Below, piece after piece: positions 19,682-23,557 of a stretch of 64,000 bases of DNA (its first letter is position 1; each line of letters starts with the position of its first letter). Under the pieces are notes generated by a model that was not told the DNA's origin, searched no databases, and saw only the letters and a list, made by a program, of their open reading frames with translations. The stretch comes from Flavivirga algicola. Its GTDB lineage: Bacteria; Bacteroidota; Bacteroidia; Flavobacteriales; Flavobacteriaceae. A program made the translations under genes and the position numbers. Where the stretch lies: assembly GCF_012910715.1 (NCBI RefSeq), contig NZ_JABBHF010000002.1, positions 129,001-193,000 on the forward strand. The letters run 5' to 3'.

Positions 19682-20740
19682 ATGAAACCATTTCACCATA
19701 AAAAAACCGTTATGTTAAACAGCCCCAAACTGAAAAAAACATTTTCGTTAAAGCATCTATTAGTGCTTTCCTTACTCGCTCTACTTTTAATGAGCTTTGT
19801 TACTGAAAATGTATTTAATAAGCAAACTACAGCCATATCTTATAAAGCGAATAACGATTTAAACAAAGAAAAATCTTACTCCTTGTTAAGAGAAAAAAGA
19901 GACGTTTCACACACTAAAGGAAGAAATACGATCATTGAATCGGACTTTGCAAAAACAGAATTTATTATATTTAAGGAAACTACGGATGAAGGCTTAGATA
20001 AAATTACAGCTAATTTAAAAGATCTGGGGTATACTATCTCTTTCAAAGATTTAGTGCGAAATGATAAAGGAGAAATTATAAATCTCAAAATCTATTTAAA
20101 AAACTCTAGCAGATCTGATATTTATAGTATGGGGTCTTCCCGCCCTTATCCAATTTCTCCAATTGTCATGATATTAAACTGCCCACATTATCGAGGAAAA
20201 GATATTGTTACAATGCTTTCTAAGAAGAACTCTATTGATCTACCACTCATAAGTCACAGCACATATTTAAGGATTTCTTTACAAAAAGATAATTCAAGTA
20301 AAAATGTGCTACATTACGAAATAGGGAAATACCCCAGAAGAATCGGAACTTTACTTTTACAATGTTTCAATGTAAATACGAATAGGGTAATGCGAAAATT
20401 CAAGGATCACAAAGAAACTATCTTTATAAATGGGACAAAGTCCACTCCCTACGAGTTGGGAGAATTAAGCAAAAAGCTAAAGAGTAACGATATTATAAGT
20501 AACCAAAAAAATTATTTAGAAATACGAGAGCATAAAAAAACAAAAAACGTATTTTTCTATGTGGATGGCATCCCCAGAGTATTTACACTTCCTCCATTAG
20601 TTATAGTAGATGGAAAAGAATATAAAGATTTTAACTTTGAAGGTTTAATTCCAGAAAATATAAAAACTTTAAAAAGCTTAAAAGATAAAGTTGTTATAAC
20701 CACACATGAGCATGCATTAACCAATCCTAAAAAACAATAA
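19682..20740 (+). CDS. Membrane-anchored protein, paralogue of the BlaR1 C-terminal region
   Basis: 352 aa. Residues 7-45 (KKTVML, LLVLSLLALLLMSF) align with the segment around residues 245-285 of the BlaR1-like protein at 21329 (KKRIVML, then the last membrane helix), and the repeat around residues 100-150 (TDEGLDKI, LGYTISFK, RNDKGEI) recurs twice in that protein. It is therefore the extracytoplasmic half of a BlaR1-type sensor without the M56 peptidase domain. An in-frame TAG 5 codons upstream shows it is not joined to a peptidase. A second ATG at 19712 is possible. Ends 24 bp before a hairpin terminator. Role unknown, perhaps a ligand or partner of the BlaI/BlaR system. Confidence 0.7.
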   Translation: MKPFHHKKTVMLNSPKLKKTFSLKHLLVLSLLALLLMSFVTENVFNKQTTAISYKANNDLNKEKSYSLLREKRDVSHTKGRNTIIESDFAKTEFIIFKETTDEGLDKITANLKDLGYTISFKDLVRNDKGEIINLKIYLKNSSRSDIYSMGSSRPYPISPIVMILNCPHYRGKDIVTMLSKKNSIDLPLISHSTYLRISLQKDNSSKNVLHYEIGKYPRRIGTLLLQCFNVNTNRVMRKFKDHKETIFINGTKSTPYELGELSKKLKSNDIISNQKNYLEIREHKKTKNVFFYVDGIPRVFTLPPLVIVDGKEYKDFNFEGLIPENIKTLKSLKDKVVITTHEHALTNPKKQ

Positions 20741-20763: not shown

Positions 20764-20787
20764 AAGACACTCTCTATAGGGTGTCTT
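20764..20787 (+). terminator. Intrinsic terminator after the BlaR1-tail paralogue
   Basis: AAGACACTCT with a short loop and AGGGTGTCTT, followed by a run of T. It separates the 19682 gene from the blaI operon. Confidence 0.85.
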
Positions 20788-20817
20788 TTTTTATGTTCTT
20801 TTTATTGAAAATCACAA

Positions 20818-20873
20818 AACTAAAAATTTAGTTAAAAAACTATTATTTTAGTTGTATAACTATAAAAATAGTT
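20818..20873. promoter_or_regulatory. Array of three BlaI/MecI-type operator dyads, 20-bp period
   Basis: The dyad AACTA-N6-TAGTT occurs three times without mismatch, at 20818-20833, 20838-20853 and 20858-20873. The starts are exactly 20 bp apart, about two helical turns, so all sites face the same side of the DNA. The third is extended to GTATAACTA/TAGTTATAC. The array overlaps the -33 and abuts the -7 element of the blaI promoter, as a repressor operator would. The dyad is seen; assignment to the adjacent BlaI-like repressor is inference. Confidence 0.8.
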
Positions 20874-20882
20874 ATACGTTTG
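20852..20882 (+). promoter_or_regulatory. Promoter of the blaI-blaR1 operon
   Basis: TTG at 20852-20854, a 20-bp spacer, then TACGTTTG at 20875-20882, a textbook Bacteroidota promoter (TTG / TAnnTTTG). The predicted start of transcription is about 20887, some 80 bp before the ATG at 20967. Confidence 0.75.
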
Positions 20883-20966
20883 TTTTAGATTAAAAAATTA
20901 GACCTGGCTTACAACAACATAAGTAATTAGATTTCCCTTTTGAGGAAAGAAAAAAGTAGATATTCG

Positions 20967-21326
20967 ATGGAAAAATTAACAAACAAGGAAGAAGAGATTA
21001 TGCATATTTTATGGAAGCTAGAAAAAGCTTTTGTTAAAGATGTACTTGCTGAAATCAAAAATGACAAACCGCATTATAATACACTTTCTACCATTATTAG
21101 AAATTTAGAAGAAAAGGGATATGTCTCTTATAATGCTTATGGTAAGACGCATCAATACTACCCTATTGTTAGTAAAGAAGATTACAAGAAAAAGTTTATG
21201 AATTTAGCTATTGGACATTATTTTAACAACTCTTATAAAAATATGGTATCCTTTTTTGCGAAGGAAGAAAAAATTAGCGTTAAAGAACTAAAAGAAATTA
21301 TTGAGTTAATTGAAAAAAATAAATAA
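20967..21326 (+). CDS. BlaI/MecI/CopY-family repressor
   Basis: 119 aa from the ATG at 20967; an upstream TTG at 20940 would add nine lysine/arginine-rich residues and is less likely. LTNKEEEIMHILWKLEKAFVKDVL and the winged-helix segment NTLSTIIRNLEEKGYVSY are the hallmark of BlaI/MecI penicillinase repressors, followed by a C-terminal dimerisation helix. It binds dyad operators as a dimer and is inactivated by proteolysis after signalling through a BlaR1/MecR1 partner, here the next gene 2 bp downstream. No beta-lactamase gene is present, so its targets differ from the classical ones. Confidence 0.92.
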   Translation: MEKLTNKEEEIMHILWKLEKAFVKDVLAEIKNDKPHYNTLSTIIRNLEEKGYVSYNAYGKTHQYYPIVSKEDYKKKFMNLAIGHYFNNSYKNMVSFFAKEEKISVKELKEIIELIEKNK

Positions 21327-21328
21327 CT

Positions 21329-23107
21329 ATGGAATATTTATTAAAAGTTAGTTCTGTCGTTGTTATTTTTTATCTCGTTTATAAAATTTTATTACAACGC
21401 GATACTTTTTTTCAATCAAATAGGAGCTTTCTTCTTATGGGTTTAATAAGCTCATTTGGTATTCCTTGTTTTGTGATTCCTATTTATATTGAATATGTTC
21501 CTAATATTCTTGAAAATTATAGTTTAGGTGGGGGCACCTTTATAGTTGATAATGTGGAAAAACCTTTTAATATCTTAAACTATCTCCCTGTTGTCTATTT
21601 AGCAGGAGTGTTTTTCTTTTCTTGTCGTTTTATTATACAACTGGTGTCATTATTTACATTAATTTCAAAAAATAAAAGTGAAAAACAAGGTTCGTTTAAG
21701 TATGTAAAAATAAATACTTATGTTTCTCCTTTTTCCTTTTTCAATTGGATCGTTTATAATCCAAATCAATTTAACAAAACTGAATTAGACCAAATTATTA
21801 CACACGAAAAAGTACATGTAACACAATACCACTCTGTAGACATCCTGTTAGCCCAAATTTCTTGTATTGTACTTTGGTTCAACCCATTTGTATGGTTATA
21901 TAGCAAGGATGTGAAGCAAAATTTAGAGTTTGTCGCAGATCAAAATGCGCAGCAAAAATTCAATTGCAAAAAAAGTTATCAAACCACACTATTAAAAACA
22001 AGTATGCCATCTCATCAAATGGCTTTAAGTAATCATTTTTATAATTCATTAATCAAAAAACGAATCGTTATGCTACACAAATCAAAATCTAAAAAAATTA
22101 ATTTAATAAAGTATGCCTTTGTAATTCCTTTGCTAACTCTATTTTTAGTGAGTTTTAATACTGAGGAAGTTTATGTGGAGGCTCCAAATTTACAAAACAA
22201 CAATACATCCATTCAGAAAGATTTAAACAAAGATGGTATTGAAAAGTTTTTAATTTATAATGATTTCACTGATGCAAAACTTAAAACTTTTGAGGCTGAG
22301 CTTAAAAGTAAAGGTTATGATTTTAACCTTAAAAACTTAAAAAGAAATACTCATAATCTAATCACTACCATATACTTTACAATTAATAAAAATGGTACAG
22401 AAGGTACCTACCGGATAGCTTCTGGTAGACCTATTAAAACAATACTCATCAAATATTCTAAAAACAAATTCAATATTAACACATTAGACTTTATTGAAGC
22501 CCAAAAAGGAAATATTGGTAATCAAGATTTAATTGAAATTAGAATTGATAAGCATACAACTATCTCTGAACTTATAACCAAAAAGAAGCTTCTAAAAGAA
22601 AAATACGATGTTATTTTTAATTTTGAAATATCGGAGCAAAAATCTAATGGTATACCAATATATTCATATAAAATTGGTAAAAAAGGAATGATGCAAGGGG
22701 TTACAACAACTCCAGACCGTTCCTTAGTTATTAAGTACAACCCAAGAACAAACTCTATTCAAAGCCACGGAATTAATAAGCATGGAGACCCTACTTATGG
22801 ATCAGTAAAACATCTTGACAAACAAAATTCTTATATAATTAAAAATGATTACAGTGATAAAAGTTTAGAACATTCTATAAAGTATTTAAAAGAAAAAGGC
22901 ATTACCATTAAATTTTCTAATGTAAAACGCAATGATGAAGGGAAAATTATTTCTATAAAAATTAATGCCAAAACAGAATACACAAGCAATTATAACTATA
23001 ATGTCGATTCCAAAGGCCCAATAGCCCCAATAGCCATTTCATATTACGACAATGGGAAGAGGCTTAAAATTGGTATCGCTCAATCTAACTTATCAAACTT
23101 TAAATAG
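21329..23107 (+). CDS. BlaR1-like M56 peptidase membrane sensor
   Basis: 592 aa. N-terminal membrane helices, then the gluzincin motif H159-E-K-V-H163 with the third metal ligand in NLEFVAD (E200), as in M56 peptidases. A last helix near residues 262-276 (FVIPLLTLFLVSF) leads to an extracytoplasmic C-terminal region with two copies of a roughly 70-residue repeat (start NDFTDAKLKTFE and NDYSDKSLEHSI), shared with the 19682 protein. The ORF stops at TAG 23105-23107, but the same frame continues for 24 more codons to TAA with the conserved-looking end KNGAVEITTRK, so the stop may be a recent nonsense change. It presumably cleaves or signals to the BlaI protein upstream. Confidence 0.88.
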   Translation: MEYLLKVSSVVVIFYLVYKILLQRDTFFQSNRSFLLMGLISSFGIPCFVIPIYIEYVPNILENYSLGGGTFIVDNVEKPFNILNYLPVVYLAGVFFFSCRFIIQLVSLFTLISKNKSEKQGSFKYVKINTYVSPFSFFNWIVYNPNQFNKTELDQIITHEKVHVTQYHSVDILLAQISCIVLWFNPFVWLYSKDVKQNLEFVADQNAQQKFNCKKSYQTTLLKTSMPSHQMALSNHFYNSLIKKRIVMLHKSKSKKINLIKYAFVIPLLTLFLVSFNTEEVYVEAPNLQNNNTSIQKDLNKDGIEKFLIYNDFTDAKLKTFEAELKSKGYDFNLKNLKRNTHNLITTIYFTINKNGTEGTYRIASGRPIKTILIKYSKNKFNINTLDFIEAQKGNIGNQDLIEIRIDKHTTISELITKKKLLKEKYDVIFNFEISEQKSNGIPIYSYKIGKKGMMQGVTTTPDRSLVIKYNPRTNSIQSHGINKHGDPTYGSVKHLDKQNSYIIKNDYSDKSLEHSIKYLKEKGITIKFSNVKRNDEGKIISIKINAKTEYTSNYNYNVDSKGPIAPIAISYYDNGKRLKIGIAQSNLSNFK

Positions 23108-23207: not shown

Positions 23208-23231
23208 AAGACACTCAAAACTGAGTGTCTT
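23208..23231 (+). terminator. Intrinsic terminator of the blaI-blaR1 operon
   Basis: Perfect 10-bp arms AAGACACTCA/TGAGTGTCTT around an AAAC loop, followed by TTTTTTT. Its position 26 bp after the outer TAA (23182) rather than at once after the TAG fits the longer original reading frame. Confidence 0.88.
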
Positions 23232-23557
23232 TTTTTATGCTTTACAATTTTAAAAAGATGAAATTGATAAAAAACATATTTTTTTTAAAAAATTTTGCCT
23301 TAGAAATTAAAAAAGAAAGAAAAATGCCCCTACAATTGTTTTATTATGAAACAAAAATGACGATTAATAATTACAAAACAAAACTTTAATGTAGGAAGTC
23401 ACTCAAATAAAACAATCAAAATAATTATATTACTTACAAATCCATATTCAATTTCATTGATTTTCATTAAAACGTTTGGCAAACATATGGGTAAATATAT
23501 ATCTTAAAAAAACATTGATATGTATAACTTATTTAATAACCTATAAAACCTAAAAAT
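23232..23557. other. Gene-free A/T-rich stretch
   Basis: No supportable ORF, RNA gene or clear promoter seen between the blaR1 terminator and the small ORF at 23558. Confidence 0.5.

Follow-up and report, generated by a model that had tools for sequence, protein, structure and literature searches.

A triplet of dyads at a 20-bp period on the promoter of a BlaI-family repressor gene in Flavivirga algicola and its conservation in the Flavobacteriaceae

The blaI-A operon and the three dyads on its promoter

The window (the whole 64-kb stretch of the Flavivirga algicola genome that was analysed) contains an operon with a gene for a repressor of the BlaI/MecI/CopY family, here called blaI-A, and a gene for a BlaR1-like M56 membrane metalloprotease (Table 1). 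The 119-aa BlaI protein named in the initial annotation is real; residues 4-116 matched PF03965 with 108.9 bits, at a cut-off of 22.6. It stayed below the cut-offs of the named NCBIfam families, with CopY_TcrY as the best match (45.4 of 121.95 bits) and BlaI_of_BCL at 43.6 of 180 bits. Judged from these scores, BlaI-A is best described as a member of the broad Penicillinase_R family and not as a named BlaI, MecI or CopY protein. The nearest solved structures by sequence are those of MecI (1sd6/1okr) and BlaI (1sd4), and an AlphaFold model from a 22-row alignment had a mean pLDDT of 54, which is too poor for a fold search. None of the 119 residues is a cysteine, so that, unlike CopY, BlaI-A lacks the C-terminal CXC motifs of this copper sensor and thus a CXC metal site.

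The M56 protein matched PF05569 with 63.3 bits (cut-off 31) and carries its HExxH motif as HEKVH. PF05569 was its sole Pfam match at E 0.001, with no penicillin-binding sensor domain, and against NCBIfam blaR1_generic it scored 30.2 of 400 bits, which is below the cut-off. The operon in the window contains no gene for a beta-lactamase or for a penicillin-binding protein (PBP) as target.

Table 1. Coordinates of the features at the blaI-A locus; positions are those of the window.
Feature	Position	Strand	Remarks
352-aa ORF	19682-20740	+	directly upstream of the array; no Pfam match
Terminator-like hairpin	20764-20792		between the 352-aa ORF and the array
Distal dyad D3	20818-20833	n/a	AACTAAAAATTTAGTT; exact AACTA-N6-TAGTT
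Middle dyad D2	20838-20853	n/a	AACTATTATTTTAGTT; exact; final TT shared with the -33 TTG
-33 element TTG	20852-20854	+	overlaps D2; read from the sequence
Proximal dyad D1	20858-20873	n/a	AACTATAAAAATAGTT; exact; within the -33/-7 spacer
-7 element	20875-20882	+	TACGTTTG (TAnnTTTG); 17 bp past the D1 start
Remaining promoter and leader	20883-20966	+	length differs widely between relatives
Leader hairpin	20932-20948		TTTCC-loop-GGAAA
blaI-A, 119-aa BlaI/MecI/CopY-family repressor	20967-21326	+	PF03965
blaR1-like M56 membrane metalloprotease, 592 aa	21329-23107	+	PF05569
HEKVH motif of the M56 protein	21803-21817
Terminator-like hairpin	23208-23236		past the M56 gene

The initial annotation had described three identical dyads with starts at a 20-bp period and a promoter at 20852-20882. 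All three dyads were recovered as exact matches, and both promoter elements were placed correctly. The -33 and -7 elements, which we take to form a promoter of the Bacteroidota type, are 20 bp apart. D3 lies upstream of the TTG, D2 extends across it and D1 fills the spacer; the inner six bases of each dyad are all A or T.

Several other features were observed around the array. Residues 7-155 of the product of the upstream ORF match the C-terminal region of the M56 protein at 28% identity (E 4e-11), and the ORF resembles a copy of the sensor part without the protease. Among 92 orthologue loci, with the genus loci covered to 1.5 kb upstream, the window's own locus (L020) was the only one with a full-length match to it. 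Two similar terminator-like hairpins, with ends of the form GTGTC-T(7), were noted by eye. The blaI leader has a short hairpin about 18 nt 5' of the start codon, and a pattern search recovered it, with a varying loop, at 7 of 11 genus loci and at 3 of 80 named loci (best 80 of 513).

Conservation of the 20-bp register

Exact AACTA-N6-TAGTT occurs in the window only as the three dyads of the array. A scan of the whole 5.02-Mb genome, as the initial annotation had proposed, found 11 exact dyads: three at blaI-A, three before a second blaI gene (blaI-B) and five isolated ones, with tandem arrays only at the two blaI promoters. The genome contains four exact tandem pairs; the pattern read backward gave none, and a single match when mismatches were allowed. 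At up to one mismatch, pairs with a period of 20 bp were present in 206 of the 397 family genomes and in 140 of 237 genera.

Of 12 genomes of the genus, ten carry blaI-A (11 copies, 83-100% identity) and two do not (G008 and G010). The 20-bp register was retained in all 11 promoters; ten have all three dyads at 8 of 10 bases or better, and one (L028) has two. The -7 element starts 17 bp past the D1 start in each of them, and its distance to the start codon varies from 48 to 175. With up to three mismatches allowed, the array was present in the ten genomes with blaI-A and missing from the two without; other matches at this setting were few and isolated, and the backward control was equally rich.

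Beyond the genus, we used 80 named orthologues, the best 80 of 513 confirmed matches (82-95% identity); Flavivirga records were among the closest of these 80, at 91-95%, where records of the genome itself may have been left out. Counting dyads of 8 of 10 bases or better, the register directly upstream of the gene holds three dyads in 74 of these 80 cases, two in three (L159, L162 and L169), one in a single case that is cut by a contig end (L126) and none in two (L131 and L132). Since the triple arrays of L131 and L132 sit farther up, before an inserted gene, three dyads at 20 bp are present at 76 of the 80. The phasing is therefore kept in close relatives. In 79 promoters from the same best 80 of 513, the -7 element follows the D1 start by 17 bp in 59 and by 15 bp in 14, and none was found in six; the distance from the D1 end to the first start codon ranges from 25 to 256 nt. 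Column statistics over 77 of these promoters showed that conservation extends from -42 to about +24 relative to D1. The half-site C and G are nearly invariant in D1, D2 and D3, the TT of the -33 element is invariant, and its third base is G at a frequency of 0.64 and T at 0.27. Beyond the third dyad conservation ends abruptly, and these columns contain no fourth one.

The distal dyad differs from the other two. All 10 bases match in 75 of 79 D1 and 64 of 79 D2 sites of the best 80 of 513, and in only 7 of 76 D3 sites, the window's perfect D3 being of this kind. D3 is present at 8 of 10 or better in 76 of the 80 promoters, mostly with one half-site weakened: 64 of the 76 sites have exactly one mismatch and five have two. 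By its two most variable positions, the weak half is the left one in 29, the right one in 39, both in one and neither in seven. On a tree from a quick search without bootstrap, in which three rows are less than half filled, the weak side switches between left and right at least 12 times; the starred branches force eight changes for the left label and six for the right. This suggests that selection may maintain a half-weak distal site.

The register extends beyond the family. We scanned 395 genomes of the class Bacteroidia for exact tandem pairs with gaps of 0-10 bp, a search that misses weaker arrays, as does the exact-pair gap scan of the family described below. The 381 genomes outside the family yielded 50 pairs in 49 genomes, of which 45 have a period of 20 bp, two of 21, one of 22 and two of 23; none has a period of 18. 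A BlaI homologue adjoins the array at nine of ten outside loci that were fetched, and is absent at the tenth (L244).

BlaI paralogues and their inter-dyad distances

Each of the four PF03965 genes in the genome has an M56 gene nearby. Paralogue B (C23:330386) shares the 10-base dyad of A, at distances of 18 and 26 bp, with the -7 element between the second and the third dyad. Among the 30 best matches of a family search with B, the 18-bp pair lies directly upstream in 28, and because the pair of L188 precedes an inserted gene, it is present at 29 of the 30; one locus (L199) has a 17-bp pair. The third dyad of these B loci is missing or lies 23-34 bp away. Paralogue C has CTA-N6-TAG at 28 and 20 bp, and seven of its loci have both distances (five), only 28 (one) or only 20 (one). 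Paralogue D has TACGA-N6-TCGTA at 23 bp. With C mixing 28 and 20 bp and D using 23, a fixed 20 bp is not universal among these repressors. Five B promoters (L184, L185, L033, L034 and L037) have neither TAnnTTTG nor a third dyad; an inverted repeat of the TATTAGCAAA...TTTGCTAT type stands right after their 18-bp pair and may bring another promoter or element.

A table of 149 family genomes was made with A called at E < 1e-36 and B at E < 1e-45. The 20-bp array was present in all 34 genomes with A only, and the 18-bp array in none of them. Conversely, all 23 genomes with B only have the 18-bp array, and a single one (G092) has a 20-bp array, which precedes an S41 peptidase gene. Genomes with both paralogues (58) have the 20-bp array in 53 and the 18-bp array in 54 cases, and the 34 genomes with neither have them in two and none, respectively; all these counts come from genomes that are related by descent and hence not independent. 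Allowing one mismatch, the 20-bp array was missing from 5 of 92 A-positive genomes and the 18-bp array from 4 of 81 B-positive genomes. In three of the 149 genomes a 20-bp array is present but no A orthologue passes the E-value cut, and the A calls for G032 and G061 lie near this cut. The 18-bp pattern occurs in 77 of the 149 genomes and its backward control in two. Hence, the inter-dyad distance tracks the repressor paralogue.

A scan of gaps of 0-30 bp in 60 family genomes gave 74 exact tandem pairs in 42 of them, at periods of 18 (32 pairs), 20 (29), 24 (1), 26 (4), 28 (2), 31 (1), 32 (1), 34 (3) and 36 bp (1); no exact pair was found at 16, 17, 19 or 21-23 bp. Close to 18 and 20 bp, other periods are rare overall, with 17 bp at L199 and in one family genome of the class scan (G184), and 21-23 bp in 5 of the 50 outside pairs.

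The dyads of A and B also differ at base 6. In the best 80 of 513 orthologues of A this base is T in 53 of 79 D1 and 55 of 79 D2 sites. The B dyads have A at this position in all 29 cases, and so do 62 of the 76 D3 sites of paralogue A. We considered that D3 might be a site for paralogue B, and dropped this idea, as the A-only genome G044 has the same base.

In a tree of 48 rows, the 19 of A and the 15 of B each grouped as a single clade (100/100 and 100/99); the nine rows from other families did not form a single group, and for these reasons the 18-bp distance looks derived. Perhaps 20 bp is ancestral in the Bacteroidia and 18 bp arose in the Flavobacteriaceae, an ordering we infer from a midpoint-rooted tree whose deep nodes are weakly supported and whose outside branches are long.

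Several arrays in relatives precede other genes. A PF00144 hydrolase of the beta-lactamase fold (Pfam) lies between the 20-bp array and blaI at L222 and L225, and the first gene of L223, L224 and L132 resembles this hydrolase by its N-terminus; the inserted first gene of L131 encodes an AhpC/TSA-Redoxin protein. Arrays away from blaI precede genes for an esterase, a DUF6624 protein, Porph_ging proteins (presumably the family also named GLPGLI), S41 peptidases and others, and two TPR-like or unassigned proteins behind the arrays of L233 and L234 had no Pfam match. Arrays near housekeeping-type genes, such as those of L221 and L236, may be due to chance. Porph_ging clusters are preceded by 20-bp arrays at L226 and L232, the latter also having an 18-bp array, which suggests that BlaI circuits control these proteins.

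Interpretation and relation to known operators

The promoter of blaI-A thus appears to carry an operator array of the BlaI family, as initially proposed, with a phasing that is conserved in genus, family and class. We interpret it as the autoregulatory operator of the BlaI/M56 pair, in which each 16-bp dyad would take one BlaI-A dimer and contact between neighbouring dimers would set the 20-bp period; we give this reading a probability of about 0.6. Dimers on D1, between the -33 and -7 elements, and on D2, over the TTG, would exclude RNA polymerase, and D3, upstream of the core promoter, would help to hold D2 through the contact between neighbours. The M56 partner would sense a signal, and BlaI would then be cleaved and released. 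The inter-dyad distance and base 6 of the half-site would together help to separate the A and B circuits.

One dimer per dyad is supported by the fit of the dyads to the outer arms of the 16-base CopR-CopY operator RNYKACANNTGTMRNY. As in cop operators, the dyad has 16 bases, and by eye AACTA and TAGTT satisfy the RNYKA and TMRNY arms of this consensus, as given in the available text of PMC7253601; unlike them, the window dyads lack the inner CA-N2-TG. Contact between neighbouring dimers is favoured over a pure promoter constraint, because the D3-D2 spacing is kept without an obvious promoter reason and because the period is paralogue-specific, although the promoter may account for some of the constraint on D2-D1. 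Cooperative filamentation of the repressor, as suggested in the initial annotation, is at most a possibility: since conservation ends abruptly at the third dyad, the array is best read as a bounded triplet and not as an open filament. The 'spiral staircase' filament of MecI is background to this question and was not used as evidence. The initial annotation had placed all sites on one face of the DNA. This holds roughly, as 20 bp corresponds to 1.90 turns, but not exactly, as each step leaves about -34 degrees at an assumed 10.5 bp per turn. Nor is a common face a general rule, because the 18-bp pair of paralogue B leaves about -103 degrees.

Since the A and B dyads differ at base 6, the two repressors might be told apart by sequence alone. 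An account in which base 6 (AACTAT versus AACTAA) provides the insulation and the periods are incidental draws on this strong difference, and is compatible with the other readings. Against it, A's D3 mostly has the B-like base and yet keeps the 20-bp register, and AACTAA half-sites are common among the 20-bp pairs listed from outside the family; we consider it rather doubtful.

Alternatively, the dyads could be three independent operators that provide high local occupancy, with a period that stems from promoter geometry and descent and involves no contact between dimers. The interleaving of D2 and D1 with the -33 and -7 elements could alone be enough to fix their distance, the third dyad of paralogue B lies at a variable distance, and pneumococcal CopY showed no cooperativity on two close operators, as described in the part of PMC7253601 at hand. 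However, D3 and D2 remain 20 bp apart upstream of the -33 element in 76 of the best 80 of 513 orthologues, in 14 of 79 promoters the dyads keep their distances although the -7 element has moved by 2 bp, and the great majority of pairs outside the family (45 of 50) also have 20 bp. On this balance, independent operators seem unlikely.

A dimer could also bind the palindrome centred on the linker (TAGTT-N4-AACTA in A, TAGTT-N2-AACTA in B), so that A and B would differ in half-site spacing. Such a palindrome is present by construction in every tandem pair, whereas the arrays of all four paralogues keep the N6 core (AACTA-N6-TAGTT in A and B, CTA-N6-TAG in C, CGA-N6-TCG in D), this core agrees with the 16-base CopY operator, and the third B dyad stands alone; this arrangement is improbable. 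Finally, the array lies in an AT-rich region, where single dyads with up to two mismatches are not commoner in the window than in shuffled sequence (67 versus a mean of 72.6), but an origin by chance or as a low-complexity AT-rich repeat is hardly conceivable and is excluded not by the frequency of single dyads but by the exact tandem order and its conservation, as seen in the columns across promoters and in the backward-read control, which found period-20 pairs in 2 of 397 family genomes compared with 206.

Similar systems are known from other bacteria. In the bla and mec systems of Bacillus licheniformis and Staphylococcus aureus, as far as they are covered in the accessible portion of PMC3305447, a PF03965 repressor likewise has an M56 partner and operators at its own promoter. 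According to the same portion, BlaI is cleaved after activation of BlaR1 in the S. aureus model, and a peptide coactivator has been proposed in B. licheniformis. The bla/mec operators described there serve a divergon between two operons, whereas the window array serves one promoter. Also unlike bla/mec, the operon in the window has no beta-lactamase gene, its M56 protein has no detected penicillin-binding domain, and its dyads form a tight 20-bp triplet without the TACA-N2-TGTA core. The array was initially thought to go beyond the usual two-site operators. More than two sites have a precedent in the three operators (OP1-3) of the B. licheniformis bla divergon, again following the portion of PMC3305447 at hand, but the triplet at 20 bp is undescribed in the literature found. 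Two operators were reported for 67 of 88 cop sequences, mostly 24-39 bases apart with a mode of 26 (PMC7253601, available text). In Clostridium thermocellum, ordered pairs of dyads were reported as a strict requirement for BlaI_0696 and BlaI_1845, which had been studied by DAP-seq and EMSA; these repressors resemble the present case in their half-sites (GTCTAT, GACTAT) and in autoregulation, and differ in having two dyads at their targets and not three, and the section of PMC8457756 on them states no inter-dyad period and compares no periods between paralogues.

Multi-site BlaI operators are thus already known. Searches of the open-licence literature turned up neither the 20-bp triplet nor the 18/20 split, nor any account of BlaI operators in Bacteroidota, and the fixed, paralogue-specific period was likewise not found, which is weak evidence of novelty. 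A further, tentative proposal, possible but one that we would not yet favour, is that the operator period acts as an address: A and B would be kept apart because each makes its contact only at its own distance, and the half-weak D3 would tune the response.

If the spacing of adjacent dimers carries specificity, several BlaI-type regulators with a nearly identical motif could act in one cell without crosstalk. Motif and period together would then be a sequence rule for assigning operators to repressors and for finding their regulons, with secreted-type hydrolases among the members in the relatives covered here. The natural pair of 18-bp and 20-bp arrays would be a clean test case for spacing-dependent cooperativity.
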